From NCBI GenBank assembly GCA_947585425.1, contig CANPWZ010000001.1, positions 1 through 64,000 of the forward strand: a stretch of 64,000 nucleotides of DNA, read 5' to 3'. The stretch is from an uncultured Oscillospiraceae bacterium (lineage in GTDB: Bacteria; Bacillota; Clostridia; Oscillospirales; Oscillospiraceae). Numbering within the stretch: position 1 is the stretch's first letter; each line of letters starts with the position of its first letter. The notes under the pieces were generated by a model. That model saw only the letters and a list, made by a program, of their open reading frames with translations, was not told where the DNA came from and made no database searches. Of this stretch, positions 27,260 through 40,730 are shown piece by piece. A program made the position numbers and the translations under genes.

Positions 27260-27580
27260 ATGGGCGAAAAGGGAAAGAGCGGGACGTCGCGCCGGAGGAA
27301 CGAGGCGGTGTGCCAACTGCGGAAGCTGGCCCAGTGGAAGACCAATGACGCTGTGAAGCTGGCCTATTTTGGAGAGAAGAATCTGAGGCAGATCAAGGGA
27401 CTGGACTTGGCCGGGATCACGGAGCTGAAGCGGCACGCCAACGGGGCCATCGAGATGAAGTTCATCGATAAGGTGCGGGTGTTTGAGATGATCGGCGAGC
27501 TGCTGGACCGGCAGGATGACCGGGAGCTGAACAGACTGCTGGACGAGCTGGGCCACGCGGAGAGCGGCGATGAGCGGTGA
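27260..27580 (+). CDS. Terminase small subunit-like protein
   Basis: 106 aa, basic N-terminus (MGEKGKSGTSRRRNEAVCQLR) and a C-terminal coiled-coil-like segment (VFEMIGELLDRQDDRELNRLLDEL). Position directly before the large terminase and size suggest the DNA-recognition subunit. GGAGGGGG seven bases upstream fixes the start. Family membership is from context more than sequence. Confidence 0.6.
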   Translation: MGEKGKSGTSRRRNEAVCQLRKLAQWKTNDAVKLAYFGEKNLRQIKGLDLAGITELKRHANGAIEMKFIDKVRVFEMIGELLDRQDDRELNRLLDELGHAESGDER

Positions 27581-28809
27581 GCGGGCCCCGGTTTTCTCCC
27601 AAGCAGCGGAGGGTGCTGACCTGGTGGAAAACGGACTGTTATGACGCTGTGATCTGCGACGGGGCGGTGCGCTCCGGCAAGAGCTACGCGGCGACCATCT
27701 CCTTTTTCCTGTGGGCCATGGCCCGGTTCCAGCGGCAGCGGTTCGGCCTGTGCGCCCCCACCATCAACGCCGTGCGGCGCAATCTCCTGACCCCGGTCCG
27801 GGGGGAGCTGGAGCGGCTGGGGTTTCGATGGGAGGAGCGGTCCGGCCAGAACCAGGTGGCCCTCTCGGGCGGAGGGCGGGAGAACGTCTTTTATCTGTAC
27901 GGCGGGCGCGGCGCGGGGAGCGCCTCCCTCATCCAGGGGGTGACCCTGGCGGGGGCGCTACTGGACGAGGTGGCGCTGATGTCCCGCTCCTTTGTGGAAC
28001 AGGCCTGCGCCCGGTGCTCCGTGCCGGAGGCCAAGCTGTGGTTCTCCTGCAATCCGGCGGGGCAGGCCCACTGGTTCTACCGGGAGTGGATCCAGAGGGC
28101 GGAGGAGAAGCGGGCGCTGTACCTCCGCTTCACCATGGACGACAATCCGGCGCTGACCCGGCGGACGAAAGAGCGATACCGGCGGCTGTTCCAGGGGGCA
28201 TTTTACCGGCGGTATGTGCTGGGGGAGTGGACGTCCCCGGAGGGGCTGGTGTACGACTTCTTCGATCCCGGACAGGCGCGGCCCGCCCCCAGAGGGGGCT
28301 TCGAGCGGTGGCGCATCTCCTGCGACTACGGCACCCGGAACCCGGCATCCTTCGGGCTGTGGGGACTGAGGGAGAACACCTGGTACCGGGTGAAGGAGTA
28401 TTACTACGACGCCGCCGTGGAGGGAAGCCAGAAAACCGACGGGGAGTATGCCCGGGAGCTGGAGCGGCTGGCCGGGGGACGGCGGATCGAGGCGGTGATC
28501 GTAGATCCGTCGGCGGCCAGCTTCATCGAGACGCTGCGGCGGAAGGGCTGGCCGGTGCGGAAGGCGGACAACCGGGTGCTGGAGGGCATCCGGCGGACGG
28601 CGGAGGCCCTGAAGGAGGAAAGGGTAGTCATCTGCAGGGGGTGCGGAGCCGCCCTCCGGGAGTTCGGACTGTACCGCTGGGAGAACGACGGGACAAAAGA
28701 CCGGGTCCACAAGGAACACGACCACGCCATGGATGACATCCGATACTTCGTGATGAGTTTGGAGACGGAGGAGCCGCTTGCGGCGGCGTTTGTAGAGCGG
28801 TGTGTATGA
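27577..28809 (+). CDS. terL: Phage terminase large subunit
   Basis: 410 aa. ATPase Walker A-like DGAVRSGKSYAA (Lys35), Walker B ALLDEVAL (Asp130, Glu131) and coupling motif SCNPAG are followed by an RNase H-like nuclease domain (SCDYGTRNPASFGLWG, VDPSAASFIETL, HAMDDIRYFV carrying acidic residues). It packages DNA into proheads. The GTG start overlaps the preceding stop. All visible motifs look intact, so packaging activity may be retained. Confidence 0.93.
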   Translation: MSGPRFSPKQRRVLTWWKTDCYDAVICDGAVRSGKSYAATISFFLWAMARFQRQRFGLCAPTINAVRRNLLTPVRGELERLGFRWEERSGQNQVALSGGGRENVFYLYGGRGAGSASLIQGVTLAGALLDEVALMSRSFVEQACARCSVPEAKLWFSCNPAGQAHWFYREWIQRAEEKRALYLRFTMDDNPALTRRTKERYRRLFQGAFYRRYVLGEWTSPEGLVYDFFDPGQARPAPRGGFERWRISCDYGTRNPASFGLWGLRENTWYRVKEYYYDAAVEGSQKTDGEYARELERLAGGRRIEAVIVDPSAASFIETLRRKGWPVRKADNRVLEGIRRTAEALKEERVVICRGCGAALREFGLYRWENDGTKDRVHKEHDHAMDDIRYFVMSLETEEPLAAAFVERCV

Positions 28810-28879
28810 CACCAAAACAACAGAGGGAGAGACCTATAAAGGGATTTCCATATACACATCAATGAGAGGAGCATGAGAC

Positions 28880-29230
28880 ATGGAGATTTGCTTTGAGGGC
28901 GTGGGCCAGGCGGTGGCCACCTTCCTGACCGGGGCGGAGCTGACCGCCGGCCAGGCGGTGGCGCTGACCGGCAGCTCCACCGTGGGCCTGGGCGAGAGCG
29001 GCGCGCTGCCCTGCGGCGTGACGGCGGGCAGCCAGCGGAACGGCGCGGTGGCCGTCCAGATCGCGGGGGCGGTGACGGTGGGCTATTCCGGCGAGACCGC
29101 GCCCACCGTGGGCTACTGCGCCCTGACCTGCGACGGCAGGGGGATGCTGACCAAGGCGGAGGACGGTGGGCTCACCTGCCTGGTGCTGGCGGTGGACGAG
29201 ACGGCCAAGACCGTCACCGTGAAGCTGTAA
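28880..29230 (+). CDS. Small capsid-associated protein, DUF2190-like
   Basis: 116 aa, Ala/Gly/Thr-rich, predicted all-beta (LTAGQAVALTGSSTVGLGESG, GAVAVQIAGAVTVGYSG quoted in part). The size, composition and place just before the capsid gene fit head decoration or fibre proteins of the DUF2190 group. Ribosome site GAGAGGAG lies nine bases upstream. A more AT-rich 70-base gap separates it from terL. Confidence 0.6.
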   Translation: MEICFEGVGQAVATFLTGAELTAGQAVALTGSSTVGLGESGALPCGVTAGSQRNGAVAVQIAGAVTVGYSGETAPTVGYCALTCDGRGMLTKAEDGGLTCLVLAVDETAKTVTVKL

Positions 29231-29252
29231 AAACATCGAGAGGAGATCAGAT

Positions 29253-30275
29253 ATGGCTTATCGATTCGACAATGTGAAGCTGGAGAAGGGCATGTACCAC
29301 GAGGCGGGCCGGTCCTTCACCCAGGTGCTGGAGAAGATGGATCCCAGCGAGCAGTACAAGGGCACCGCCCTGGAGGGGCTGGACGCCTATCAGCGGCAGC
29401 TGAAGCGGTTTGACATCAAGGTGAAGGGGGCCGGCTCCGATCTGGTGGACAAGTTCTTCTCCACCTCCCAGTCGGCGGTGCTGTTCCCCGAGTACATCGC
29501 CCGGGCGGTGAAGGTGGGCATGGAGGAGGCCAACATCCTCCCCGACATCACCGCCACCGAGACCCTCATCGAGGGGATGGACTACCGCTCCATCACCTCC
29601 GTGCCCGAGGATGAGAAAAATCTGAAGCGGGTGGCCGAGGGGGCTGCCATCCCCCAGACCACCGTGCGCACCAGGGACAGCCTGGTAAAGCTCCACAAGC
29701 GGGGGCGGATGCTGGTGGCCTCCTACGAGGCCATCCGATTCCAGAAGCTGGACCTGTTCTCCGTCACCCTGCGGCAGATCGGCGCCCAGATCGGGCGGAT
29801 GCACCTGGAGGACGCCATCGAGGTCATCCTCAACGGAGACGGCAACGATAACAAGGCGGAGGTCTCCCACGTGGCCGCCGCCGGCAAGCTGACCTATGAC
29901 GACCTGCTGGATTTCTGGAACAGCTTTGAGCCCTATCAGCTCAACACCCTGCTGGTGGGCACCGACACCATGACCAAGCTGCTGGCCATGAGCCAGATGC
30001 AGGACGCCGCCGCCGGGCTGGACTTCCACGGCACCGGCAAACTCATCACCCCCATGGGGGCCAAGGTGCTGCGCACCTCCGCCATGCCCAAGGACACCAT
30101 CATCGGCCTGGACAAGAACTATGCCCTGGAGATGGTGAAGGCCGGCGACGTGATGGTGGAGTACGACAAGATCATCGACCGGCAGCTGGAGCGGGCGGCC
30201 ATCACCACCATCTCCGGCTACGCCAAGATCTTTGAGGACGCCAGCCGCGCCCTGTCCATGAACGCGGCGGAATGA
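29253..30275 (+). CDS. Phage major capsid protein
   Basis: 340 aa, consistent with an HK97-fold capsid protein: N-terminal helical arm (FTQVLEKMDPSEQYKGTALEGL), a central spine region and the P-domain style MLVASYEAIRFQKLDLFSVTLRQIG, ending with a strand-rich section. GAGAGGAGATC precedes the ATG. It is followed rather than preceded by the portal gene, the reverse of most tailed phages. Confidence 0.82.
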   Translation: MAYRFDNVKLEKGMYHEAGRSFTQVLEKMDPSEQYKGTALEGLDAYQRQLKRFDIKVKGAGSDLVDKFFSTSQSAVLFPEYIARAVKVGMEEANILPDITATETLIEGMDYRSITSVPEDEKNLKRVAEGAAIPQTTVRTRDSLVKLHKRGRMLVASYEAIRFQKLDLFSVTLRQIGAQIGRMHLEDAIEVILNGDGNDNKAEVSHVAAAGKLTYDDLLDFWNSFEPYQLNTLLVGTDTMTKLLAMSQMQDAAAGLDFHGTGKLITPMGAKVLRTSAMPKDTIIGLDKNYALEMVKAGDVMVEYDKIIDRQLERAAITTISGYAKIFEDASRALSMNAAE

Positions 30276-30294
30276 ATCTGATCGGAGGCGGGAT

Positions 30295-31440
30295 ATGGGC
30301 CTTCTGAGACGAAAACAGGCGGGGCGGGCGGCGGCCGCCGCCCAGCTCCGGGACGCCGGACGGCATCCCTTTGCCATGCTGGACGGCTATGTGCCCCTCC
30401 TGAGTGGGGAGACCGCCCTGTACCGGGCCATCCGGGAGGGGGTCCCCGTGATCGACGCGGCCATCGACAAGCTGATCCGGCTGAGCGGCGGCGTGATCGT
30501 CCGCTGTAAGGACCGCAGGGCCCAGGAGGGGATGGAGCGGTTTCTCCGCACCGTCCCCACCGGGCGGGGGCGGCGGGGCATCCAGTCCTTCCTGGACGGC
30601 TACCTGGACTCCATGCTGGTGACGGGCCGGGCGGTGGGCGAGATGGTGCCCGCCGCCGACGGCCGGGGCGTGGCGGCGCTGCTGTGCGCCGACGTGGGCC
30701 GGGTGGAGATCAAAGAGGGGGACAGCCCGCTGGACTTCACCCTCTGGGCCAGGGACAGCGACGGGAAGCTGCGGGAGCTGCCCCGGCAGGAGCTGCTGCT
30801 GTTCACCCCTTTCCAGCCGGAGACCGGGTCGCCCTACGGGGTGTCTCTGCTGCGGTCCATGCCCTTTTTGGCCGAGATCCTCATCAAGATCTTCGACGCC
30901 ATCGGAAAGAACTGGGAGCGGACGGGCAACGTGCGCTTCGCGGTGGTGTGCAAGGGCGCCGAGGCGGGGCTCGCCGAGGAGCGGTGCCGGCAGGTGGCGC
31001 GGGAGTGGTCCGCCGCTATGCAGGCCGGCCGGGACGGGGCCGTGCGGGACTTTGTGTGTGCCGGGGACGTGGAGATCAAAGCCATCGGCGCGGACAACCA
31101 GGTGCTGGACAGCGAGGTCCCCGTGCGGCAGATCCTGGAGCAGCTGGTGGCAAAGACGGGCATCCCGCCCTTTTTGCTGGGCCTCAGCTGGTCCTCCACC
31201 GAGCGGATGAGCAGCCAGCAGGCCGATATCCTCACCAGCGAGATCGCCGCCATCCGGCGGAGTCTGGAGCCGGTGGTGGAGCGGATCTGCGAGCTGTGGC
31301 TGCGGCTGAAGGGCTATGACGACCGGGTGGACATCGACTGGATCGACGTGAATCTGCAGGACGAGGAAGTGGAGGCCAGGGCCGCGCTCTACCGGGCGCA
31401 GGCGGGGGCCATCGAGGAGGAACGGAATGGAGATCAGTAA
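30295..31440 (+). CDS. Phage portal protein
   Basis: 381 aa with portal features: N-terminal LYRAIREGVPVIDAAIDKL, wing/stem region with PYGVSLLRSMPFLAEILIKIFDAIGKNWERTG, and C-terminal VAKTGIPPFLLGLSWSSTERMS followed by helices. It forms the dodecameric DNA channel at one capsid vertex. The last 14 bases overlap the next gene. Confidence 0.9.
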   Translation: MGLLRRKQAGRAAAAAQLRDAGRHPFAMLDGYVPLLSGETALYRAIREGVPVIDAAIDKLIRLSGGVIVRCKDRRAQEGMERFLRTVPTGRGRRGIQSFLDGYLDSMLVTGRAVGEMVPAADGRGVAALLCADVGRVEIKEGDSPLDFTLWARDSDGKLRELPRQELLLFTPFQPETGSPYGVSLLRSMPFLAEILIKIFDAIGKNWERTGNVRFAVVCKGAEAGLAEERCRQVAREWSAAMQAGRDGAVRDFVCAGDVEIKAIGADNQVLDSEVPVRQILEQLVAKTGIPPFLLGLSWSSTERMSSQQADILTSEIAAIRRSLEPVVERICELWLRLKGYDDRVDIDWIDVNLQDEEVEARAALYRAQAGAIEEERNGDQ

Positions 31441-32296
31441 GGACGCGGTGGTGAAGGCCATCGGCACGCCGGAGGGGGAGGATCTGTCCCTCATCAACCG
31501 GCTGGCCCGGCGGGAGCTGACAGCGGAGGAGGTCTACACCTTCGCGGTGCGGCTGTGCGACAACGACATCGACCGAGACTTTGAGCGGTTCGACGATGGG
31601 GCGCTGGACACCCTGGCGGAGCTGTTCCCGGGAGTATCCGGGGTGTTCGACCACCAGTGGTCGGCCAAGGGCCAGACGGCCCGCATCTATCGGACCGAGG
31701 TGGTGGCCGACCCCGGCGTGGTCACCGCCGACGGGCGGCCCTACAAGTTTTTGAAGGGCTGGGCCTACATGATGCGCACGGCGGAGAACGCCGACCTCAT
31801 CGCCGAGATCGACGGGGGCATCAAGCGGGAGGTCAGCGTGGGCTGCGCGGTGGAGCAGGTGATCTGCTCCATCTGCGGCGAGGCGCTGGAGGACTGCCCC
31901 CACGAAAAGGGACAGGAGTACGACGGGCAGGTGTGCGCCGGCGTCCTCACCGGGGCCACCGACGCCTATGAGTGGTCCTTCGTGGCGGTGCCCGCCCAGC
32001 GGAAGGCCGGGGTCATCAAGAGCGCGGGAAAACGGCTGGAGGACGAGGCCCGGCTGGGCCGGAAGTACCTCAAGAGCCTGCGCCGGGAGACGGCGCGGCT
32101 GGCGGGCATCGCCGAGCCGGGGGCCAATCACGGTCTGCTGGAGCGGGTGTGCGCCAAGCTGGACGAGGAGGAACTGCTGGGGCTCATCAAACTGTACCGG
32201 GGAAAGACCGAGAAGATGCTCACCGGGCGGCCCCAGCTCCCCTACGGCGAAGAGGGACAGGAGCCGGAGATGGCCGACGGGGCCTATCTCATCTGA
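31427..32296 (+). CDS. Prohead protease/scaffold-like protein (XkdF position)
   Basis: 289 aa. The stretch DIDRDFERFDDGALDTLAELFPGVSG and FDHQWSAKGQTARIYR, then DAYEWSFVAVPAQRKAG, resembles the XkdF/HK97-type prohead protease-like domain with a His in GVFDHQW and a Ser in WSFV as possible catalytic residues. A CSICG...CPHE cysteine pair in the middle may bind metal. The C-terminal 100 residues are charged and helical, as expected of a scaffold segment. Protease activity is not certain. Confidence 0.65.
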   Translation: MEISKDAVVKAIGTPEGEDLSLINRLARRELTAEEVYTFAVRLCDNDIDRDFERFDDGALDTLAELFPGVSGVFDHQWSAKGQTARIYRTEVVADPGVVTADGRPYKFLKGWAYMMRTAENADLIAEIDGGIKREVSVGCAVEQVICSICGEALEDCPHEKGQEYDGQVCAGVLTGATDAYEWSFVAVPAQRKAGVIKSAGKRLEDEARLGRKYLKSLRRETARLAGIAEPGANHGLLERVCAKLDEEELLGLIKLYRGKTEKMLTGRPQLPYGEEGQEPEMADGAYLI

Positions 32297-32311
32297 TAAG
32301 GGGGCGCGGAT

Positions 32312-32659
32312 ATGACCGACGCGGTGCTGGAGATCGTGAAGGGGCTGTGCCCCGGACGGGACGAGGAGCTGCTGCGGCTGCTGTGCGCCGCCGCCTGTGA
32401 GGCGCTGGGCGGCCTGCTGCGGGACGGCGTAACGCCCGAGGACTGCGGGGGGCGCTACCCTCTGGCGGCGGCGTGGATGGCCGCGGACTGGCTGCGGGAC
32501 TGCGGCGGGGCGGAGGAGATCACCGCCCTCACCGCCGGGGACATGAGCGTCCGCCGGGAGAGCGGCGGAACTGGCGGAAAGCTGTCCGGCAGGGCCATGG
32601 AGCTGATGGCCCCCTACATCCGGGATACCGGGTTCGTGTTCCGGGGGGTGCGGGGATGA
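32312..32659 (+). CDS. Head-tail connector protein
   Basis: 115 aa, mostly helical, ending in a beta hairpin region (GDMSVRRESG). Typical of gp6/XkdH-type adaptor proteins that bind the portal. It overlaps the next gene by four bases. Confidence 0.65.
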   Translation: MTDAVLEIVKGLCPGRDEELLRLLCAAACEALGGLLRDGVTPEDCGGRYPLAAAWMAADWLRDCGGAEEITALTAGDMSVRRESGGTGGKLSGRAMELMAPYIRDTGFVFRGVRG

Positions 32660-32991
32660 CAGAGCTGTTCGCGGAGGTCATCCGGGCCTATGGCAAAGAG
32701 CTGATTTGCCGGAGGCAGGACGGGACCGAGGCGGGCCGGGGGATGGCCATCGTCCGGCCCATGACGAGGCGGGAGCGGCAGAGCGCCGGCGGGGCGCTGG
32801 GCGCGGAGCGGACCGACAGCTTCCTGGGCCTGGCCGAGCCGGGAACGCCGGTGGAGGCGATCGGCCCCGGGGGATGGCTGGAGTGGAGCGGCCAGCGGTT
32901 CGAGGCGCTGACCTGCCAGCCCATCCCGGTGGGGGATATGGTGACCCACCTGTGGCTGGCCCTGCGGCCCTGCGGGGAGACCGCTCCATGA
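32656..32991 (+). CDS. Head closure-like protein
   Basis: 111 aa, beta-rich (ELICRRQDGTEAGRGMAIVRPM, FEALTCQPIPVGDMVTHLW in part), in the position of head-closure proteins. The ATG overlaps the preceding stop (ATGA) and the end overlaps the next start the same way. Assigned mainly by order. Confidence 0.6.
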   Translation: MTELFAEVIRAYGKELICRRQDGTEAGRGMAIVRPMTRRERQSAGGALGAERTDSFLGLAEPGTPVEAIGPGGWLEWSGQRFEALTCQPIPVGDMVTHLWLALRPCGETAP

Positions 32992-33488
32992 GCGGCGGAT
33001 TCGAGGCGCTGCGGGAGGGGGTCGTGTCCCTCCTGCGGGAGAACGGGGTCAACGCGGTGCCGGGGATGTCGCCGGAGCCGGCCAGACGGTGGCGGGAAGC
33101 CGCGGCGGCGGTGTCCGTCAAGAAAGTGAGCTGCGCCGCCGGGGGATTCCAGAACTATCTGGGCCGGGAGGCGGACGGCGGCGGCGAGAAGGAGCTCTAC
33201 GGCAGGGCGGCGGACATCACTCTGTCCATCGACGTGTACGCCCCCAAAGACGGGGGCGAGGGGGCCTGCCAGAGGGCGCTGGAGCGGATCGCGGAGATCC
33301 TGCTGACCTGCGGCGCGGCGGGGCTGGAGGCGGCCGAGCTGACGGCGGGACAGACGGAGTGGCTGGACCGGGAGGGGATGTACCGGCTCAGGGCGGAGTG
33401 CCTGTGCCGGGCATGGCTCACCGTGTCCGCCAACCGGGAGAGCGGCGGATACTTTACCGATTTTGAAGTGAGAGGGAGAAGGACATGA
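32988..33488 (+). CDS. Tail terminator/minor tail-like protein (XkdJ position)
   Basis: 166 aa alpha/beta protein: N-terminal helix FEALREGVVSLLRENG, strands AADITLSIDVYAPK, helix CQRALERIAEILLTCG, and a C-terminal strand pair. This matches the usual fold plan of tail terminator or completion proteins. It lies between head closure and sheath. Confidence 0.55.
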   Translation: MSGGFEALREGVVSLLRENGVNAVPGMSPEPARRWREAAAAVSVKKVSCAAGGFQNYLGREADGGGEKELYGRAADITLSIDVYAPKDGGEGACQRALERIAEILLTCGAAGLEAAELTAGQTEWLDREGMYRLRAECLCRAWLTVSANRESGGYFTDFEVRGRRT

Positions 33489-34537
33489 GCATGACAGTAC
33501 AGCATGAGCGGCCGGGGGTGTACTCCTCCTATGAGGCGTCCAGCCTGACGGCGGCCATGGATCGGGGCGGCGTGGTGGCCGTGATCGCCAGGTCGGACAA
33601 AGAGGGAGCGGAGAAGGTCTACTCCTGGAGCAGCTACAGCAGGGCGCTGAACGACGTGGGGGAGTGCGCCCTCAGTGAGATGGCCCGGCTGGCCATCCGC
33701 AACGGCGCGGGGCTGGCGTACGGCCTTCCCGTGAAGGCGGAGGAGGGTTATGACGACGCCTTCGCCCTGGCCGCTGCCTTGGAGGATGTGGACATCGTGG
33801 TGTGCGACAGCGACGATCAGGCCACCCAGAAAAAGCTGCTGGAGACGGTGAGCGCCTGCTCCGCCGCCCGGAAGGAGCGCATCGCCGTGGTGGGGGGCAA
33901 GGCGGACGAGACGGTGGATCAGCTCATCACCCGGGCCAAGGCCCTCAACAGCGAGCGGGCGGTGCTGGCGGCCCCCGGCGCGGTGACCGGCGCGGGAAAA
34001 AGCACCGGCGGGGCCCAGTGCGCCGCGGCGCTGGCGGGAGCTATCGCGGGCAATGCCGACCCGGCCCTGCCCCTGGGGGGCGCGCAGATCTACGGACTGG
34101 ACGGCCTGGAGGCCAACTATGACGACGGGGACATCGACAAGCTGATCCGGGGCGGCGTCACTCCGCTGGAGACCCTGGCCGGGAACTGCTATGTGGTGCG
34201 CGCCGTCACCACCCGGACCACCACCGGCGGCGTGGACGACGCCACCTGGCGGGAGCTGACCACCATCCGGGTGGTGGACGAGGTCATCCCCGGCATCCGA
34301 AATGCGCTGCGGGCCAAATTCAGCCGGGCGAAGAACACCGAACAGACCAGAGGGGCCATCCGCTCCCAGACCGTGATGGAACTGGAAAAGCGGGTGAGCC
34401 GGGAGATCATCGACGGCTATGAGGACGTGACCGTGTCCGCCCTGCCGGAGGATCCCGCCGTGTGCCTGGTGGAGTTCGCCTTCACCGTGGCCCACGGGCT
34501 GAACCAGATCTGGCTGTCGGCCCACATCACCGTTTGA
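33485..34537 (+). CDS. xkdK: Contractile tail sheath protein
   Basis: 350 aa, on the short side for a sheath. Hallmarks: N-terminal HERPGVYSSYEASSL, central VVGGKADETVDQLITRAKAL with a vWA-like fold, and the C-terminal domain GNCYVVRAVTTRTT...WRELTTIRVVDEVIPGIRNALRAKF. It forms the contracting outer tube of a myovirus-type tail, so the element encodes a contractile device. The ATG overlaps the preceding gene. Confidence 0.92.
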   Translation: MSMTVQHERPGVYSSYEASSLTAAMDRGGVVAVIARSDKEGAEKVYSWSSYSRALNDVGECALSEMARLAIRNGAGLAYGLPVKAEEGYDDAFALAAALEDVDIVVCDSDDQATQKKLLETVSACSAARKERIAVVGGKADETVDQLITRAKALNSERAVLAAPGAVTGAGKSTGGAQCAAALAGAIAGNADPALPLGGAQIYGLDGLEANYDDGDIDKLIRGGVTPLETLAGNCYVVRAVTTRTTTGGVDDATWRELTTIRVVDEVIPGIRNALRAKFSRAKNTEQTRGAIRSQTVMELEKRVSREIIDGYEDVTVSALPEDPAVCLVEFAFTVAHGLNQIWLSAHITV

Positions 34538-34552
34538 TAAGGGGGAGAGAGC

Positions 34553-34957
34553 ATGAGCGCGATTTCTTTGGGACAGGCCGGGTTCCCCACCAGCAGCGAC
34601 ATCTGGCTGGAGCTGGACGGCAAAAAGGTGGCCGTGGTGCAGAGCTATACCAGCAAGGCCACGAGGAATTCCACCGCGGTGGAGGCCTTCGGCGAGAGCG
34701 AGCCGGTGGCAACCGTCCAGGGGCCCCAGAGCCACGTCATCCAGCTGAGCCGGCTGTACGCCACCGACAGGGCCATCGCCGACGGGCTGAACTTCTATGA
34801 TATGAAGAACTTTTCTCTGGTCATCTGCAAGCCGGATCGGAAGGTCATCTACTCCGACTGCCAGTGGAGCGACATCCAGGAGGACGCCAAGCTGGGCCAG
34901 ACCGTGGTGGAGAAGCTGACCCTGGTGGCCAGGAAACGGATGGAGACCAGGGCGTGA
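34553..34957 (+). CDS. xkdM: Tail tube protein
   Basis: 134 aa, the usual size. It shows a tube-type beta fold with KKVAVVQSYTSKATRNSTAVEAFGE and NFSLVICKPDRKVIYSDCQWSDIQE. It forms the inner tube inside the sheath. GGGGGAGAG before the ATG. Confidence 0.88.
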   Translation: MSAISLGQAGFPTSSDIWLELDGKKVAVVQSYTSKATRNSTAVEAFGESEPVATVQGPQSHVIQLSRLYATDRAIADGLNFYDMKNFSLVICKPDRKVIYSDCQWSDIQEDAKLGQTVVEKLTLVARKRMETRA

Positions 34958-35367
34958 GCATCCGGGCGGGACGGGAGCGGATGACGGTGGCCGAGGGGGA
35001 ACTGCGGCTGCTGTCCGCCCTGGAGGCGCTGGAGGCCCGCCGGGAGGGGGCCGCCCTGGCCGCCGACGAGAGGGAGCGGGCGCTGTGCGACAACGCCTGC
35101 CTCCTGGCCAAGGCGCTGGAACGGGACGGAAAGCCCGTCTTTGCCGACGGGCGGGCCGTGCTGGCCGGGCTGCGGGTGGAGGACATCGCCCGGCTTTCCG
35201 ATGAGTGGGCCAGATTCAACCGGGAGCAGAATCCCTCCCCGGTGGGGAGCGTTGAGGAGCAGGAACGGCGAAAAAAAGCCTGGAGCACGCGCGTTATGAG
35301 CGCCTTCAATGGCGCGTGCTCCGCCTGTTCGGCGCTCTTCCCACGGAGGAACGGGCCCGGAAGATGA
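34954..35367 (+). CDS. xkdN: Tail assembly chaperone, zero-frame product
   Basis: 137 aa starting at a GTG that overlaps the tube stop. Residues 1-108 form the helical chaperone domain (LLSALEALEARREGAALAADERERAL). Past the A7 slip site the zero frame continues only 29 residues with low-complexity, non-family-like sequence (SAFNGACSACSALFPRR), as in other gpG-type proteins. The longer frameshift form is given separately. Confidence 0.8.
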   Translation: MSIRAGRERMTVAEGELRLLSALEALEARREGAALAADERERALCDNACLLAKALERDGKPVFADGRAVLAGLRVEDIARLSDEWARFNREQNPSPVGSVEEQERRKKAWSTRVMSAFNGACSACSALFPRRNGPGR

Positions 35368-35567
35368 AGGACCGGGACTATCTGTGGTGCGCCCTGAACC
35401 TGGCGCTGGACCGGGAGGAGGAGCTGGCGCGGCTGTGCCCCTCCTGCCGGGAGCGGGCGGAGCGGGAGCCCTGCCCCGCCTGCGGCGCCCCCAGGGAGAG
35501 CTGGGGGATCAACGTCGGGTTTGACTGGGCGAGATATATGAGGTTGAAGGGGGGCGGCGGCCTGTGA
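34954..35567 (+). CDS. Tail assembly chaperone, -1 frameshift fusion product
   Basis: Ribosomes shifting back one base at the A7 run (35271-35277) make a fusion of about 204 aa: 108 zero-frame residues plus 96 residues from the -1 frame (SLEHARYERLQWRVLRLFG..., then a zinc-ribbon-like CPSC...CPAC segment, then WGINVGFDWARYMRLK). No stop codon occurs in the -1 frame between the slip site and its end at 35567. Both the signal and the gpG/gpGT-like gene position are classical. The ratio of short to long form would control tail assembly. Confidence 0.85.
35271..35322 (+). promoter_or_regulatory. Programmed -1 ribosomal frameshift signal
   Basis: Slippery heptamer A AAA AAA in register with the zero frame (codons CGA AAA AAA GCC), a 4-base spacer, then a perfect 11-bp stem GGAGCACGCGC / GCGCGTGCTCC (35282-35292 with 35312-35322) around a 19-base loop. 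Confidence 0.88.
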
Positions 35568-36181
35568 TCGATCGGCTGGCGGAACTGCTGGGGATCGCGG
35601 AGCGTGAGGACGAGGATGAGAGCGAGAGGGACGAGAGCGTAGTGGAGGCCGGCCCCTTCTTCGGGCCGGGACGGCGGCGGACCGATCCGGCCAGAGAGGA
35701 GGCCGGGCCGGAAGATCCGGCGGCAGAGGCTTCCGAGGCCCGGGAGTCCCCCGCGGTTCCGGCCGGGGCGGGGGCAGAGACCGTGCCGGAGGAACTGGAG
35801 CGGGCGATCCGGGAGGCGGAGACCCTTCGGGAGGAGCGGAGCGGCGTCCGGCCACCCGAAGAGGACAGCGTGCCGGCGGCGCCGTTCCCAGCGCCGCCGG
35901 GGGAGGACGGGCTTGTCTCCCCGGAGGAGAGTGGCCCCGGGGGGGCGGACTGGCTGCCGTCTCTCGGCCGGGAGGGAGACCAGTCGGGGCTGGAGCTGCT
36001 GTACCGGGCGGCCGCCCGGGCGGGGGAGACGGCGGCGGAGCCGCTGTCCGCCGGACAGACCGCCCGGCAGGTCCTGCCCGACCCAGTCCCCTCGGAGCCC
36101 GTCCGAATGACGGTGGAGGAGATGGACCGGGCCATGCGCCGGGACAGCCGCCGGTATGACGGCGGAATGACCATCTATTGA
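35564..36181 (+). CDS. Short disordered protein in the tape-measure slot
   Basis: 205 aa. The N-terminus is a short helix (MIDRLAELLGIAEREDEDE), the middle ~130 residues are Pro/Glu/Ala/Gly-rich and predicted disordered, and the C-terminus (PVRMTVEEMDRAMRRDSRRYDGGMTIY, in part) looks like a conserved docking motif. It starts with a GTG overlapping the chaperone stop and precedes the LysM hub protein. That is exactly where PBSX-type elements carry a tape-measure protein of over 1000 residues. It has no membrane helices or long coiled coil. It may be a remnant, a minimal ruler or a replacement protein. Confidence 0.7.
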   Translation: MIDRLAELLGIAEREDEDESERDESVVEAGPFFGPGRRRTDPAREEAGPEDPAAEASEARESPAVPAGAGAETVPEELERAIREAETLREERSGVRPPEEDSVPAAPFPAPPGEDGLVSPEESGPGGADWLPSLGREGDQSGLELLYRAAARAGETAAEPLSAGQTARQVLPDPVPSEPVRMTVEEMDRAMRRDSRRYDGGMTIY

Positions 36182-36200
36182 CGAGAGAGGAGCGGGGAGG

Positions 36201-36779
36201 ATGAACCTTTCCCCCATGCGGTTCAAAAGCTTTGTGTGGCCCCACAACCCCAGGACCTACACCATCACTTTTGAGCGGAAGATCGCCGCCCACAAGATCC
36301 CCTTCGGGCGGCACTATCTCCAGAGCCTGGGACTGACCAGAAGGGTACTCTGGGGCGAAGGGGAATTTGTGGGCGCGGGGGCCTACGATAAGTTCAAGGA
36401 GCTGGCCAGCGTGTTCTACGAGGAGACGCCGGGGGTGCTGGTCCACCCGGTGTGGATGACCACCACCGCCTGGTTCGCGGGGCTGTCGCTCCGGCAGGAG
36501 CCCAGGGAGGACTATGTGGCCTATACCTTTGAGTTCTGGGAGACAGGGGGCGACGAGGATACCAAACTCACTGCCGCCCCCGAAAGGGGCGCGGGCGGCG
36601 CCTCCGGGAGCGGGGAGGCCCAGAGCGGCGGCGAGGTGTGGTATGCCGTGGTAAAGGGGGATACCCTCTGGGGCATCGCCGCACGGTACGGCAGCGGCCT
36701 GAGCCAGATCATCGCCCTGAACCCACAGATCAAGAACCCCAACCTCATTTTCGTCGGACAGAAGGTGAGGGTGCAATGA
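36201..36779 (+). CDS. xkdP: LysM-containing tail hub protein, XkdP-like
   Basis: 192 aa. The first ~120 residues are the XkdP-type domain (MRFKSFVWPHNPRTYTI start), followed by a Gly/Ser linker and a C-terminal LysM repeat (YAVVKGDTLWGIAARYGSG...NPNLIFVGQKVRV). The LysM likely contacts peptidoglycan or tail-tip partners. GAGAGGAGCGGGGAGG precedes the start; it overlaps the next gene by four bases. Confidence 0.88.
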   Translation: MNLSPMRFKSFVWPHNPRTYTITFERKIAAHKIPFGRHYLQSLGLTRRVLWGEGEFVGAGAYDKFKELASVFYEETPGVLVHPVWMTTTAWFAGLSLRQEPREDYVAYTFEFWETGGDEDTKLTAAPERGAGGASGSGEAQSGGEVWYAVVKGDTLWGIAARYGSGLSQIIALNPQIKNPNLIFVGQKVRVQ

Positions 36780-37729
36780 TCCGATGCTGGGTGACAAAGG
36801 GAGACGGCTCGGCCCTGACCCTGCCCACGGCGGAGCGATGGCGGTTCCGCTACGGCACGGACACCCCCTGCGACAGCTTTGAAGTGCGGTGCCTGTGGGA
36901 AAAAGGACAGGAGAAGGAGCTGTCTGCCGCCTGCCGCTTCTACGCCCAGTGGGAGGGCCAGCGGGTGTTCACCGGGGTAGTGGACGAGTACGCGGTGGTG
37001 TGCGGCAGGGAGGGGCTGTATCTGGAGCTCTCCGGCCGGGGGATGGCGGCCCTGCTGCTGGACAACGAGGCCATGCCCGCCCAGTACCAGCGGGTCACCG
37101 GGGCGGTCATCATAGCGGACCATGTGACGCCCTACGGGATCACTGCCGTGGGCGAAAGCAGCCTGCCGGTGGTGAGCAATTTCACAGTGAGCAGCGGGGA
37201 GAGCGAGTGGAGCGTGGTGCGGACCTTCGCCTGCTGCTACGGCGGGGTGGTGCCCCGGTTCGACCGGGAGGGCAGGCTGATCCTGAACGGACACGGCGAC
37301 GGATCGGTGCTGAAGATCGGGGACGGCACGGCCCTCACCGGGTGGGAGTACCGGGAGGACCGCCACGGGGTGCTGAGCCAGGTGGCGGTGCGGAGAAGGT
37401 CCCAGCCGGGGACCCAGTGGGTGTCGGACCAGAGCTTTATCGCCGAGGGCGGAAAGGCCCGGCGGGTGGTCACGGTGCCCAACATCACCGGGACGGCGGC
37501 CATGCGGTATACGGCGGACTATCAGCTGCGGGCCTCCCGCCGGGAGCGGAAACGGCTGACAGCGGCGCTGGCCGGGGCCTTTTTGGCCTGGCCGGGGCAG
37601 CTGGTGGACGTGGCACTCACCGGGTGCGGGGCCAACGGGAGATACCGGGTGGCCCAGACGGAGGTGTCCTGCGGGGAGGACGGACTGACCACCGTGCTGA
37701 TCCTGGGCGAGCCGGACAGCATGATCTGA
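36776..37729 (+). CDS. xkdQ: Baseplate hub protein, XkdQ/gpD-like
   Basis: 317 aa, beta-rich, with the late-control-D/XkdQ style plan: split-barrel domain with VFTGVVDEYAVV and GLYLELSGRGMAALLLDNEA, a central helix pair, and a C-terminal SQVAVRRRS...WPGQLVDVALTG region. The true ATG overlaps the xkdP stop; the longer reading upstream runs through xkdP and is not real. It builds the hub above the spike. Confidence 0.85.
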   Translation: MIRCWVTKGDGSALTLPTAERWRFRYGTDTPCDSFEVRCLWEKGQEKELSAACRFYAQWEGQRVFTGVVDEYAVVCGREGLYLELSGRGMAALLLDNEAMPAQYQRVTGAVIIADHVTPYGITAVGESSLPVVSNFTVSSGESEWSVVRTFACCYGGVVPRFDREGRLILNGHGDGSVLKIGDGTALTGWEYREDRHGVLSQVAVRRRSQPGTQWVSDQSFIAEGGKARRVVTVPNITGTAAMRYTADYQLRASRRERKRLTAALAGAFLAWPGQLVDVALTGCGANGRYRVAQTEVSCGEDGLTTVLILGEPDSMI

Positions 37730-37745
37730 ACAGGAGGACGAGACG

Positions 37746-38096
37746 ATGTGGCTGAGCGGACAGCAGAGACGGCCCGCCGAGAATGGCGAGGGCCAGACCG
37801 GCACCGTCACCATGTGCGAGGGCGAGCTGGCGGTGGAGCTGGACAGCGAGCGGCGGGGGCTGGAGCTGTACGGCCCCGCCGGCTACCGCTGGACCCCGGA
37901 GGTGGGGGAGCGGGTGCTGGTCATCGAGGGCAGAGGGGAGACCCCATGCGTGGTGGGGACCCGCCAGGGGGATCATGTGCCGGAAAAGGTCACTGTGGAG
38001 GCAAAAGACGTGGCGCTCAAGGGCCAGGTGTGGATCGGCGATATGACACTGGAGCAGTATATCGCCATGATCGCGGCCGCGATAACGGGAGGTTAG
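37746..38096 (+). CDS. Small baseplate/spike-like protein
   Basis: 116 aa, all-beta: TGTVTMCEGELAVELDSERRG, YRWTPEVGERVLVIEG and a final VEAKDVALKGQVWIGDMTLEQYIAM. The OB-fold-like start and repeated strands suit a minimal gpV-type spike or XkdR-position protein. AGGAGGACGAG lies before the ATG. No metal-binding apex motif of PAAR proteins is visible. Confidence 0.6.
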   Translation: MWLSGQQRRPAENGEGQTGTVTMCEGELAVELDSERRGLELYGPAGYRWTPEVGERVLVIEGRGETPCVVGTRQGDHVPEKVTVEAKDVALKGQVWIGDMTLEQYIAMIAAAITGG

Positions 38097-38098
38097 GG

Positions 38099-38449
38099 AT
38101 GAGTCTGCTGCTGAAAAACCGGGATTACGCGGTGAATGGAGACGGCGGCGTGGTGGTGGCCGCCGGAGGGGATGCGCTGCTGAACGAGGCGCTGTTCCGG
38201 CTGACTGTTAGGAGGGGCAGCTTTCCCTTCCTGCCTGAGCTGGGCAGCCGGATGTACCTGCTCCGGCGGGAGAAGCCCTCCGCCTGGGCGGACCTGGCGT
38301 GTCAGTATGCCGCCGAGGCACTGGCTGATCTGACTGGCCTGACGGTGACCGGCGCCGCGGTGAGCCGGCAGGGAGACGCGCTGTGGGCAGAGATCGCCAT
38401 GAAGTGGAAAGGCGAGAGTTTGACGGTGACGGCGGAGTTGGAGGGATAA
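38099..38449 (+). CDS. xkdS: Baseplate wedge protein, XkdS/gpW (gp25)-like
   Basis: 116 aa. The segment LLNEALFRLTVRRGSFPFLPELGSRMYLLRREKP is a GP25/XkdS signature region (quoted here only for recognition in part: RGSFPFLPELGSR). Three bases separate its stop from the next gene. It starts the baseplate wedge. Confidence 0.82.
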   Translation: MSLLLKNRDYAVNGDGGVVVAAGGDALLNEALFRLTVRRGSFPFLPELGSRMYLLRREKPSAWADLACQYAAEALADLTGLTVTGAAVSRQGDALWAEIAMKWKGESLTVTAELEG

Positions 38450-38452
38450 CAG

Positions 38453-39514
38453 ATGATGACCTTGGAGGAAATCTATCAGAAGCTGGCGGCGGAGTTCCAG
38501 GAGCGGACCGGCCTGGCCGCGGCGGGCAGCAGCGAGCTGGCGGTTCGGTTCTACGCGGTGGCGGCGGAACTGTACAGCTTGTATGTCCAGGCGGAGTGGA
38601 CCCGCCGGCAGTGCTTCCCTCAGACTGCCGTGGGGGAAGATCTGGACAACCACGCCTGGCTGCGGGGCATCGACCGGCGGCAGGCTGTGAAGGCCACCGG
38701 CACGGTGACCTTTTTCCTGGACAAGGCCCAGGAGACCGAGGTGGAGATCCCGGAGGGGACGGTTTGCATGACAGCGGGAGGGACGCGGTTCGTCACCCTG
38801 GAGACGGGGACGGTGGAGGCCCAGTCGGTCCAGACGGACGTGCCGGTGGAGGCCGTAGAGGCCGGGATCTCCGGCAATGCGGCGGCCAATACCATCGTAT
38901 ATATGGCGGTGCCCCCCGTGGGGGTGGCGGCCTGCGCCAACGCGGAGCCGCTGGTGAACGGCCAGGACACCGAGGACGACGAGAGCCTCCGCGCCCGGGT
39001 GCTGGAGAGCTACCGACGGCTGGCCAACGGCGCCAATAACGCCTTTTATGAGCAGGCGGCCATGGCCTTTGACGGGGTGGCGGCGGTGACGGTGCTGCCC
39101 AAGGCCCGGGGCGTGGGCACCGTGGACCTGGTGGTGGCCTCCCCCGGCGGCAAGCCGGAGGAGGAGCTCATCCGTGCCCTTCAGGCGTATTTCGACCGGG
39201 TGCGGGAGATCGCCGTGAGCGTGGAGGTCAAGGCCCCGGCGGAGCACACGGTGGACGTGGAGGCCGCAGTGACGCCGGAGGCGGGCTGGGAGTTCGGCCA
39301 GGTGTCCGCTCTGGCGGAGAAGGCGGTGCGGGACTGGTTCACCGGGGAGCGGCTGGGCAAGCCCCTTACCCGGGCGGAGCTGATCGCTCTCATCTATCAG
39401 GTGGACGGGGTAGCCAACGTGACCCTGACCAGGCCGGCGGAGGATCTGGCGGCGGAGCAGTCCACCCTGCCGGTGCTGGGGACGCTGACCATCACCAACG
39501 CGGCAGGGGAATGA
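38453..39514 (+). CDS. xkdT: Baseplate wedge protein, gpJ/XkdT-like
   Basis: 353 aa with the baseplate J plan: helical N-terminus (TLEEIYQKLAAEFQERTG), DLDNHAWLRGIDRR, a beta-rich middle (EIPEGTVCMTAGGTRF, GISGNAAANTI), DDESLRARVLESYRRLANGANN, and a C-terminal VDGVANVTL. It connects wedges around the hub. Confidence 0.92.
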   Translation: MMTLEEIYQKLAAEFQERTGLAAAGSSELAVRFYAVAAELYSLYVQAEWTRRQCFPQTAVGEDLDNHAWLRGIDRRQAVKATGTVTFFLDKAQETEVEIPEGTVCMTAGGTRFVTLETGTVEAQSVQTDVPVEAVEAGISGNAAANTIVYMAVPPVGVAACANAEPLVNGQDTEDDESLRARVLESYRRLANGANNAFYEQAAMAFDGVAAVTVLPKARGVGTVDLVVASPGGKPEEELIRALQAYFDRVREIAVSVEVKAPAEHTVDVEAAVTPEAGWEFGQVSALAEKAVRDWFTGERLGKPLTRAELIALIYQVDGVANVTLTRPAEDLAAEQSTLPVLGTLTITNAAGE

Positions 39515-39527
39515 GGGGATGCGGCGG

Positions 39528-40106
39528 ATGAGCTATGAGGACTATCTGGTAGAGCTGCTGCGGCCCCTGGGGGCGTACGATCTGAAAGAGGGGACCGTCA
39601 ACCGGGGAGAGCTGGCGGCCTACGGCGCCCGGCTGGACGGCGCGGCGAGGGAACTGGAGGACACCGAGCGGGAGATGAATCTGGTCACCGCCGAGGACTT
39701 CGGCCTGAAGCGGATCGAGGAGCTGATGCCCTACCGGCCGGTGTGCTACACCACAAATCAACGGCGGCGGGCCCTGGCCGCCCTGCTGCGCATCAGCGGG
39801 GACAGCTTTACGCCCGAGGCGGTCAACGACACCCTCACCGGCTGCGGGCTCAACGCCGTGGCGGAGGAGACCGGCACTCCGGGGCATGTGAGGGTCCGAT
39901 TCCCGGAGGTGGCGGGGATCCCGGAGGGTTTTGAGCAGATAAAGGAGATCATCGAGGAGATCCTGCCCAGCCACCTGGACATCGAGTATAAGTTCTGGTA
40001 CAATACCTGGGCCATGGTCCGGGACAGACATCCCACCTGGGGAGACGCCGTGGCCGCGAAACTGAGCTGGTACGGCGTCGCCACCGAGCACGACCCGTGG
40101 GAATAA
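39528..40106 (+). CDS. xkdU: Baseplate protein, gpI/XkdU-like (DUF2313)
   Basis: 192 aa with features of the XkdU/DUF2313 group: N-terminal YEDYLVELLRPLGAYDL, a middle NLVTAEDFGLKRIEELMPYRP, and C-terminal ILPSHLDIEYKFWYNTW, typical for proteins that link tail fibres to the wedge. GAGGGG nine bases upstream favours this ATG over one three codons earlier. It is the last gene; no tail fibre gene follows, only a terminator. Confidence 0.85.
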   Translation: MSYEDYLVELLRPLGAYDLKEGTVNRGELAAYGARLDGAARELEDTEREMNLVTAEDFGLKRIEELMPYRPVCYTTNQRRRALAALLRISGDSFTPEAVNDTLTGCGLNAVAEETGTPGHVRVRFPEVAGIPEGFEQIKEIIEEILPSHLDIEYKFWYNTWAMVRDRHPTWGDAVAAKLSWYGVATEHDPWE

Positions 40107-40112
40107 CAGGGA

Positions 40113-40147
40113 AACAAGGGGATGGCTGGGAAAGCCATCCCCTTGTT
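40113..40147 (+). terminator. Stem-loop at the end of the phage operon
   Basis: 15-bp perfect stem AACAAGGGGATGGCT / AGCCATCCCCTTGTT with a GGGAA loop. The T run after it is weak, so termination may be partial. Confidence 0.65.
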
Positions 40148-40187
40148 AGCTTCCTGAAAAAGGTTATAAAATTTTCACAAAAAACTA

Positions 40188-40216
40188 TTGACAAATGAAA
40201 AGGCTTATAGTACAAT
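40188..40216 (+). promoter_or_regulatory. Strong promoter of the noncoding RNA
   Basis: TTGACA (40188-40193), 17-bp spacer, TACAAT (40211-40216). Near-consensus, one of the strongest in the window. Confidence 0.88.
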
Positions 40217-40222
40217 ACAGAC

Positions 40223-40512
40223 AGAAAGGAAAAGGTGAGTCCAATGATTTGAGGAACCGCCCGAATCCCTTTCGTGATGGAATCGCAGGTGTGAGACGAA
40301 CCCTTGACCGTTCCAAACGTGCTTGAGTAAGCATCGGAAGCCAGAGGAGTCTGAAGCGTCCATTTAGTTTGCAGAAACAGGGAGCAAGTAGTTTCTATAG
40401 CGAATCTGTCACGGCAATCTCTCGGAAAGCGAAGGTACCCGCCAATGAACAACCAAGACCAGAAGTAGGCCCCCAGTCGCGATGTAGGACGGCTGGGGGC
40501 CGAGGTGTTTTT
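40223..40512 (+). ncRNA. Structured noncoding RNA of about 290 nt (raiA-motif-like candidate)
   Basis: Bounded by a near-consensus promoter and an intrinsic terminator, with no credible reading frame. Visible helices include TGCTT-GAGT-AAGCA (from 40324), CAGA-GGAG-TCTG, AGAAAC...GTTTCT around a 12-base loop, and GGAAC...GTTCC enclosing an imperfect CGAATCC/GGAATCG hairpin. GNRA-like and purine-rich loops are frequent. It is not tmRNA, RNase P, SRP or 6S by eye. The 5' part (GGAACCGCCCGAATCCC) reminds me of the raiA motif, but I cannot verify that without a covariance search. Confidence 0.72.
40468..40512 (+). terminator. Terminator of the noncoding RNA
   Basis: 9-bp GC stem GGCCCCCAG / CTGGGGGCC (40468-40476 with 40493-40501) followed by GAGGTG and T5. 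Confidence 0.8.
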
Positions 40513-40546
40513 ATGGCGGTTTTTGGACAGACGGACTTAAGACCTC

Positions 40547-40573
40547 ATCCGGCGTTGAGCCGGATCTTTTTTT
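40547..40573 (+). terminator. Second terminator upstream of mreB
   Basis: 7-bp stem ATCCGGC / GCCGGAT with a GTTGA loop, then C and T7. Two terminators in a row insulate mreB from the noncoding RNA. The 45 bases between them hold no gene that I can see. Confidence 0.8.
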
Positions 40574-40611
40574 GCCCGAAAAAATTGATGGAAAGTTTAC
40601 AGAAAAGGGTA

Positions 40612-40640
40612 TTGCAAAATGAAAGTGCGTCCTGTATTAT
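40612..40640 (+). promoter_or_regulatory. Promoter of mreB
   Basis: TTGCAA (40612-40617), 17-bp spacer, TATTAT (40635-40640). The ~85-nt leader includes a GCCCG/CGGGC hairpin near 40690. Confidence 0.7.
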
Positions 40641-40730
40641 TATATGTGCATTTTCATCGGAAGGTGAGATTTGCCATTTTACCGCCGCCCGTAAGCGACA
40701 TCGGGCGCGTATGATACAGGAGTGAGCGAA

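Follow-up and report, generated by a model that had tools for sequence, protein, structure and literature searches.

Does the array of contractile-phage genes that lies beside mreB in the genome of an uncultured Oscillospiraceae bacterium still belong to a phage, or does it work for its host? The window analysed here is a stretch of 64,000 nucleotides (positions 1 to 64,000 of contig CANPWZ010000001.1, assembly GCA_947585425.1; 2.0 Mb in 58 contigs), and the cluster occupies 27260-40106 on its plus strand. It is flanked by what we take, from the sequence and known motifs, to be recD2 on the left (24892-27141) and mreB on the right (40722-41759, plus strand), the latter a host gene outside the element and its conserved right-hand neighbour in the genus. 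We read the cluster, with a probability of about 0.68, as a domesticated, mostly vertically inherited, contractile-tail element resembling a gene transfer agent (GTA) and ancient in the Oscillospiraceae; it is not a tailocin, nor is it a solitary prophage in decay. What the DNA shows directly is the gene content and its intactness, the single copy, the host-like inheritance, the truncated terminase small subunit (TerS) of the host and most relatives, and the lack of recognised mobility genes. An initial annotation had leaned towards domestication, and this is favoured because the cluster is present in essentially one copy, keeps its content across genera, is mostly inherited vertically, evolves at dN/dS below 1 and retains its packaging module with TerS truncated. 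Few GTA loci are known outside the Alphaproteobacteria, and the cluster is a strong candidate for the Oscillospiraceae, with homologues in about a third of the sampled genomes of a major gut family. No paper whose title or abstract describes it was found in a literature search that left most subscription papers and bioRxiv preprints outside, and the accessible text of PMC9723715 contributed nothing relevant.

Distribution, inheritance and selection

The portal gene was found in 17 of the 40 nearest genomes, the host included, and in 15 of 24 other genomes of the same genus. With a 12-row portal profile, it was detected in 147 of 400 Oscillospiraceae genomes (110 of 246 of high quality; 50 of 106 genera) and in 70 of 394 genomes of the order, 21 of them from the family and 49 from outside. 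Carriers include isolates of Flavonifractor and Pseudoflavonifractor. Each genome has one portal match save three: in G275 and G425 the match is split into pieces on one contig, and in G167 an additional, partial match on a different contig overlaps the first and could reflect either a duplicate of the gene or noise in the assembly. Contig ends truncate several of the matches. A stop within the match occurs in 3 of the 147 genomes (G072, G111, G425), and the mostly broken copies named by the initial annotation as contrary evidence were not encountered.

Forty family loci of up to 20 kb each were inspected. The usual order is g01-terL-portal-g06-g03-capsid-neck genes-sheath-tube-chaperone-LysM-hub-g15a-g15b-J-Gp48, small swaps arising from the choice of ORF starts, and g03 and capsid stand ahead of the portal only in the two loci of the host's genus. 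Sheath is present in 36 loci, J in 36 and Gp48 in 35, and the content from head to baseplate is kept in 36. The four loci without a sheath either run into contig ends (L255, L276) or lack tail genes (L268, L269). Flanking genes, judged by eye, are host-like and vary by genus (dacA, glgB, recG or kdpD types).

Within the genus, mreB lies directly downstream in 10 of 10 genomes that carry portal and mreB on one contig, the host included, and the tail half of the cluster in G002 (L096), G440 and G383 agree. Names of neighbours in these loci were assigned by eye. On the left, a murA-MBL-rlmH group was seen in five loci (L089, L090, L093, L094 and L095; only murA was recognised in L090), an enolase-type gene in L092, a MATE-type gene nearby in L088, and recD2 in the nearest relatives only. 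The conserved position between recD2 and mreB that had been predicted therefore holds on the mreB side and fails on the other beyond the nearest relatives. Clean empty sites, which the initial annotation had named as contrary evidence, do exist: rlmH adjoins mreB in the cluster-less loci L079-L081 and L083-L085, while a MATE-type gene separates the two in L082, and L086 is short and carries other genes. In G012 (L078) recD2 is followed by two copies of the mreB-leader RNA and by mreB, with no significant trace of the cluster. Since G012 is nested among cluster carriers on the rpoB+mreB tree (support 100/99), it has evidently lost the cluster, and its empty site records a loss inside a cluster-bearing clade. 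Presence and absence require four changes in all on this tree, for which rpoB was extracted by tblastn, the host rpoB being partial, G010 and G021 consisting mostly of gaps and eight forks being weakly supported.

The cluster tree of the genus shares 9 of 15 splits with the rpoB+mreB tree (Mantel r 0.86, a value not reached in any of 2000 permutations), and the mismatches would be accounted for by recombination between closely related genomes. For the family, a tree of terL, portal, capsid and g06 was compared with an rpoB tree of the same 33 genomes, drawn from 29 of the 40 family loci and four others (11 loci were omitted, their rpoB being not requested, not obtained or partial). These trees share 19 of 30 splits, against a mean of 0.25 and a maximum of 4 in 500 permutations, and the Mantel r is 0.82 (0 of 2000 permutations as high). 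Three rpoB splits with support of at least 95 are without counterpart in the cluster tree.

Nei-Gojobori dN/dS values, given as medians for the window clade and uncorrected for overlapping frames, range from 0.13 to 0.52 over the cluster genes. They are lowest for capsid (0.13), portal (0.19) and TerL (0.21), and about 0.5 for g01, g03, g11a and g12; the corresponding values for recD2 and mreB are 0.14 and 0.04. The median ratio is below 1 for every gene. Gene lengths are narrowly distributed for every measurable gene in 23 group A and 29 group B loci (in group B, g12 could be measured in only 2 loci and g17 in only 1), and all frames in the window are intact, in agreement with the earlier statement that no frame is broken. 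Taken together, the cluster appears to be inherited mostly vertically, as a host locus under purifying selection.

Truncation of the terminase small subunit

The first gene, g01 (27260..27580, plus strand; 106 aa), lies upstream of TerL and overlaps it. It is probably a TerS remnant, reduced to the C-terminal part and lacking a helix-turn-helix (HTH). Fourteen relatives were scanned; phrog_51 was matched by 7 of them and phrog_2606 by 8, and both of these families represent the terminase small subunit. A g01 profile aligns with the C-termini of the TerS proteins of phages SpaA1 (residues 198-238 of 304), D6E (212-242 of 299) and PVJ1 (205-234 of 294); it matches the Lj965 TerS weakly and that of iLp84 not at all. 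Longer TerS members match phrog_51 from 86-94 to 208-214 of its 261 positions (5 tested, best 1.2e-11), and a profile of their HTH-like segment matches the TerS of D6E (4e-4), PVJ1 (6e-4) and SpaA1 (1.4e-3), with no match to those of Lj965 and iLp84. Shorter members match phrog_51 only from about position 142 (142-212 of 261; L259 1.3e-6, L272 3.5e-6), and the short member L244 gave no TerS match.

The HTH-like segment was found in 8 of 40 family loci (L245, L246, L254, L256, L264, L268, L270, L274), which are the seeds of the HTH profile itself, and in 7 of 19 order loci (L318, L321, L322, L323, L326, L328, L335). Neither the window copy nor any of the 21 other copies in group A and the 27 in group B has it, and it is absent from 32 of the 40 family loci. 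In 71 of 89 copies (window, groups A and B, and the 40 family loci) TerS is 91-130 aa long. A family-wide loss of the HTH is ruled out by the full-length ORFs that keep it. On either tree of 33 genomes, which leave out two of the eight HTH family loci, the HTH state requires at least 5 changes; if the HTH is ancestral and was never regained, at least 7 losses are needed on the cluster tree and at least 6 on the rpoB tree. Its retention in some other genera thus implies that the DNA-recognition domain of TerS was lost repeatedly and in parallel while the rest of the cluster was kept. Loss of the N-terminal DNA-binding HTH has been proposed, in the accessible part of PMC6854486, as a defining trait of GTA-type TerS; by this trait the host TerS is in the GTA-type state and the family as a whole is mixed. 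Genera with and without the HTH offer a natural comparison for packaging specificity.

Tail chaperone and tape-measure slot

A tail assembly chaperone encoded in two frames is recognised by its position and its frameshift. Its zero frame is g11a (34954..35367, plus strand; 137 aa, no family match) and its -1 frame extension g11b (35283..35567, plus strand), which carries CxxC pairs, has a median dN/dS of 0.16 and gives zinc-ribbon-like matches below cut-off. The A7 slippery heptamer at 35271..35277 (plus strand), in the X XXY YYZ register, would move the ribosome into the g11b frame by a -1 shift; in groups A and B, 46 of the 47 copies of g11a retain it. An A-run of at least 7 between tube and LysM occurs in 13 of 37 wider family loci, the region being fused or shortened in the others. 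The tail-assembly programme is thus under selection, at least in the wider group of the host, since the frameshift site is kept in groups A and B.

The initial annotation had stated that a tape measure is missing. A normal one is indeed missing, but its slot is filled by g12 (35564..36181, plus strand), a 205-aa acidic, proline-rich protein with no significant family match. In the family loci measured, the interval from tube to LysM spans 279-1552 bp and holds no ORF longer than 270 aa (the negative spacing obtained for L268 is not interpreted), and in some genera nearly no gene lies there. In contrast, an ORF of 785 aa occupies the tape-measure position, by which it is identified, in the other prophage of the host. 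Accordingly g12 is not a normal tape measure, and the tail would be very short.

Comparison with known systems and alternative explanations

The cluster comprises head, packaging and tail genes, with no integration or replication gene recognised, as in a GTA. The integrase, repressor, replication and lysis modules of a temperate prophage were not found at the locus, and host-like genes that vary by genus flank the cluster in the family. R-type tailocins and diffocins share with the window cluster a set of contractile tail genes that is not tied to the life cycle of a phage. To our knowledge, tailocins lack capsid, portal and terminase; in the cluster these are among the best conserved genes, and their presence at low dN/dS is in line with the earlier argument for DNA packaging rather than a pure bacteriocin. 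PBSX of Bacillus subtilis has the gene order terminase-portal-capsid-neck-sheath-tube-chaperone-LysM-hub-Gp46-J-Gp48, and this contractile particle order is shared by the cluster. The latter differs in the absence of a long tape measure, with 205 aa in the slot, and in that no fibre, holin or endolysin gene follows the baseplate genes and no regulator is found, mreB coming next in the window. It also differs in its TerS, cut to the C-terminus, and in having homologues across the whole family. RcGTA resembles the cluster in its very short tape measure and differs in its siphovirus-type, non-contractile tail and its unrelated host phylum. Alphaproteobacterial GTAs including RcGTA are likewise domesticated and have a TerS without the N-terminal DNA-binding domain, according to the available text of PMC6854486. 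FpGTA I and II of Faecalibacterium prausnitzii, a species of a related gut family, were compared by description only: the accessible part of PMC12946183 gives them a TerS without an obvious DNA-binding domain, TerL, portal and capsid, as in the cluster, but assigns them a probable podovirus-like form, a second operon supplying the baseplate, fibre and lysis genes, whereas the window cluster has sheath, tube and baseplate in the main array.

The strongest competitor, though an unlikely one, is a PBSX-like killer particle that packages random host DNA and acts mainly as a contractile bacteriocin against kin. The PBSX-like order with sheath and baseplate is compatible with it, as is PBSX itself, which packages random host DNA in fragments of 13.4 kb and acts as a tailocin in the portion of PMC12946183 at hand. 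A killer particle is less easily reconciled with a cluster that has no proper tape measure and no fibre gene, and with genera that have nearly nothing between tube and LysM. Outside the family, moreover, the sheath profile matches only 4 of 20 order loci (1 of 11 in f23, 2 of 6 in f26, and f2; contig ends truncate two of the loci) with the head kept, although the order-wide profiles were built from the family and diverged sheaths and other tail genes could escape them. In several f23 loci LysM, hub and J follow the neck genes almost at once. The Ruminococcus-type loci L069, L072, L074 and L075, of about 7 kb, consist of TerS, TerL, portal, capsid, protease-like, neck, tube-like and hub-like genes, followed by host-like genes in L069 and L072; the other two loci end there. 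With the head kept and the sheath mostly unmatched outside the family, the conserved core seems to serve packaging and not contraction.

Much less probable than a killer particle is a prophage, active or satellite, that relies on a helper phage to integrate, to replicate and to lyse the cell. An ordinary prophage with holin-like and endolysin genes elsewhere in the genome, which the initial annotation regarded as contrary evidence, is in fact present on contig C17 (L340, L341), with HTH-type regulators (by eye), an XhlA-like gene (below the Pfam cut-off) and a CHAP gene, but it is distinct from the cluster. This alternative would also fit the retention of the TerS HTH in some members and the holin or endolysin genes that stand right after Gp48 in some family loci. 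Among the latter, a holin (L242), an M15 peptidase (L245) and a CBM5/12 protein (L111) are confirmed by Pfam; similar lysis or attachment genes were seen by eye in L241, L114, L110, L112, L115 and L275, and XhlA-like small proteins in L251, L265, L279 and L280, that of L251 having no match above the Pfam cut-off. Because these leftover genes vary across genera, they suggest an ancestor with a lysis cassette that was lost at different times in different genera. The fixed place beside mreB in the genus, the essentially single copy and the largely host-congruent trees speak against dependence on a helper. So does the absence of an integrase-like motif from 40 family loci, 20 order loci and 81 loci of a viral-contig collection (two crude regular expressions, no positive control).

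A domesticated particle with another role, either DNA packaging for stress survival of the producer population or protein delivery, is very improbable. It would account for conserved capsid and TerL in a cluster where no receptor-binding protein was seen, and delivery of DNA to cells is indeed hypothetical; the presence of J and Gp48 in nearly all family loci (36 and 35 of 40) suggests delivery across the envelope. Chance survival as a decaying prophage remnant, the other option of the initial annotation, scarcely merits credence: clean empty sites in some relatives and the integration, lysis, replication and fibre genes not found in the cluster would fit it, but it is strongly contradicted by intact genes of narrow length in the 23 and 29 loci, by portal matches without a stop in 144 of 147 genomes, by the same content in many genera and by the conserved frameshift signal.

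Several observations weigh against a domesticated GTA-like element. No portal match was obtained in 253 of the 400 family genomes, and loss or missing assembly must be frequent. Five splits of the family cluster tree with support of at least 95 are missing from the rpoB tree. Several genes, at dN/dS 0.35-0.52 (g12 0.72 in other group A pairs), evolve more loosely than mreB at 0.04, and an active phage would likewise stay below 1. The window g01 protein alone has no family match, its TerS identity coming from relatives; the hhalign probability of g01 against TerS is only 66%, and the case is stronger through the longer relatives. Retention of the HTH in the family and order loci given above means that its loss is not general. 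Lysis, fibre and regulator genes for the cluster were not located, and PBSX, the closest analogue in function, has been described as a killer and not as a vehicle of transfer. For this host, particles, packaged DNA, expression and transfer are predictions.

Proposed working of a GTA-like element

If the cluster is a GTA-like element, it would be transcribed as one operon, a proposal based on the finding that no sigma-70-like promoter was detected inside it on the plus strand before 38043. Capsid, portal and protease would form a small head, which TerL and the HTH-less TerS would fill to capacity with host DNA, needing no pac site. A contractile tail, presumably very short, would then be supplied by chaperone, tube, sheath and baseplate. 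Lysis proteins would be supplied from elsewhere in the genome for release, and the particles may then deliver DNA to kin cells.

GTA-like packaging of random chromosomal DNA in the Oscillospiraceae has been reported for Onthomonas (3 of 25 events) in the accessible text of PMC12946183, published in 2026; four metagenome-assembled genomes (MAGs) were searched there, and in that text a strong operon candidate is named in only one of them, a Faecalibacterium MAG. The packaging in Onthomonas is what the cluster would predict, the link to that MAG being hypothetical. The same source, as far as available, reports that Ruminococcus callidus packages fragments of 4.6 kb. We propose tentatively, and with clearly less confidence than domestication itself, that one ancient GTA lineage derived from a PBSX-like contractile phage spans the order, as a host locus since the ancestor of the Oscillospiraceae or earlier, with parallel loss of the TerS domain and stepwise erosion of the tail. 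The erosion would run from full sheath and chaperone (most Oscillospiraceae loci), through near loss of chaperone and tape slot, to loss of the sheath with the baseplate kept (most f23 loci) and finally to head, tube-like and hub-like genes (Ruminococcus, about 7 kb). If this were true, the packaged DNA of Faecalibacterium, Ruminococcus callidus and Onthomonas would come from branches of one lineage.

Gene array and boundaries

The cluster contains 19 particle genes, all intact, in 20 reading frames, identified with Pfam, PHROGs and conservation in relatives; genes without a profile name were placed by position and conservation. Profile matches confirm the single array from packaging to baseplate that had been delimited earlier, its ends being the conserved start of g01 (27260) and the stop of the Gp48 gene (40106). 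The genes then listed are present, and to them the TerS remnant, the protease-like protein, further neck genes and the frameshifted chaperone must be added. Overlaps of four bases, which had been attributed to most genes, occur at 7 of the 19 junctions. The composition is not equal to that of the host as claimed: the GC content of 0.65-0.71 is slightly higher than in most of the window and similar to that of the adjoining recD2.

All genes lie on the plus strand. After g01 follow the terminase large subunit TerL (g02, 27577..28809; PF03237 2.3e-10, phrog_2 7.9e-48), a head or virion structural protein (g03, 28880..29230; phrog_4588 6.9e-19), the major capsid protein (g04, 29253..30275; PF25209 1.3e-15, phrog_3922 1.8e-111) and the portal protein (g05, 30295..31440; phrog_30703 2.1e-156). 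The next gene, g06 (31427..32296; phrog_16951, no function), is probably the prohead protease. It shares 49% identity with the product of a gene that lies between portal and capsid in a different prophage of the host, and its AlphaFold model (mean pLDDT 74) has no PDB match at E 0.001, so that the protease role is assigned from position and homology. By position, g07 (32312..32659) is a head-tail connector (phrog_541 head-tail adaptor only at E 0.18), g07b (32656..32991) a neck protein present in 39 of 40 family loci and without a family match, and g08 (32988..33488) a tail completion or terminator-like protein (phrog_25177, function unknown, 2.9e-31).

The contractile tail sheath is g09 (33485..34537; PF17482 4.9e-15, PF04984 7e-13, phrog_279 1.4e-44), and its successor g10 (34553..34957; phrog_27038, function unknown, 3.8e-56; phrog_985, virion structural, 7.2e-5) is by position the tail tube. 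Beyond chaperone and g12 stand the XkdP-like LysM tail protein g13 (36201..36779; LysM 2.9e-15, DNA_circ_N 1.2e-5, phrog_184 baseplate hub 3.2e-9) and the Gp44/XkdQ-like baseplate hub g14 (36776..37729; phrog_177 7.1e-43 with the longer ORF, PF22255 2.8e-5, just below cut-off). The spike or Gp45-like g15a (37746..38096; phrog_25991, function unknown, 4.7e-11) is placed by position, and g15b (38099..38449; PF07409 5.7e-5, below cut-off; phrog_180 3.1e-5) is a Gp46-like baseplate wedge protein. Baseplate J (g16, 38453..39514; PF04865, Baseplate_J, 1.7e-51; phrog_6 1.3e-73) and the Gp48-like baseplate protein (g17, 39519..40106; phrog_521 1.3e-18; PF10076 1.6e-5, below cut-off) complete the array. 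The cluster is closed by a strong terminator-like hairpin (40107..40156, plus strand), the first stem in the fold of 40107-40721.

Profiles, inspection by eye and crude motifs revealed no gene in the cluster for an integrase, repressor, replication protein, holin, endolysin or fibre, as had been stated for lysis, integration and fibre genes. The LysM gene g13 is matched by PHROGs labelled endolysin and was rejected as such, its N-terminus being that of a tail protein (DNA_circ_N, phrog_184). Flanking att-like repeats were also rejected, the longest shared word having 10 bases (shuffles: mean 9.3, maximum 14).

Relatives in phage records and other elements of the host

A search of 50,697 phage records brought up, for the capsid, five faecal scaffolds labelled 'Bacteriophage sp.' together with two entries of Caulobacter phage Seuss (27%). 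For the portal it gave five faecal scaffolds of this kind plus one Microcystis phage (30%), and for the sheath two of them plus four records of Lysinibacillus or Bacillus phages (26-28%). TerL is less distinctive, with matches in 573 records and 45% identity to Lactobacillus phages. Judged by the best non-faecal capsid and sheath matches of 26-28%, the cluster appears to have no close cultivated phage relative. Searches of the viral-contig collection gave 15 loci with the window query and 318 with the profile. Eighty of the 318 were retained, and 81 distinct loci were inspected. Capsid was present in 67 and sheath in 51 of these, and the cluster made up a median of 93% of each stretch, the stretches being bounded by 10 kb flanks and contigs of up to 55 kb only partly covered.

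The GenBank 'Bacteriophage sp.' records L098-L102, from human faeces (Mexico), carry relatives of the cluster. Three of them, L098, L100 and L102 (MT835769, MT835508 and MT836604), have housekeeping-like genes beside it, judged by eye, including ribosomal proteins in MT835508, and may be chromosome pieces recovered as viral scaffolds, perhaps mislabelled. They were not counted as packaged host DNA, having probably been selected for phage genes. A link of these records to the virus-like particle study PMC8361208 is our inference only, the accessible part of its text giving no accession match.

Contig C54 of the host (L342, 4.2 kb) carries a second portal, and portals above the Pfam cut-off occur in 12 of the 40 relatives. 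Two candidate lysis partners were rejected: Phage_holin_4_1, present in 16 of 40 relatives, is absent from the host and does not track the cluster, and Peptidase_M15_4 occurs in 2 of 40 relatives, none of them in the genus.

Between the cluster and mreB, a transcript-like unit at 40188-40516 has a TTGACA-17-TACAAT promoter, a length of about 300 nt and a G+C-rich terminator. It is conserved in cluster-less relatives and doubled in tandem in G012 (L078). An Rfam search of the window found no known RNA at gathering score and one weak, chance-level match near mreB. Further to the right, at 49000-54200, lies a low-GC island (0.45-0.55) with a D12-class adenine methyltransferase, an HTH_26 regulator and a zinc-ribbon protein.

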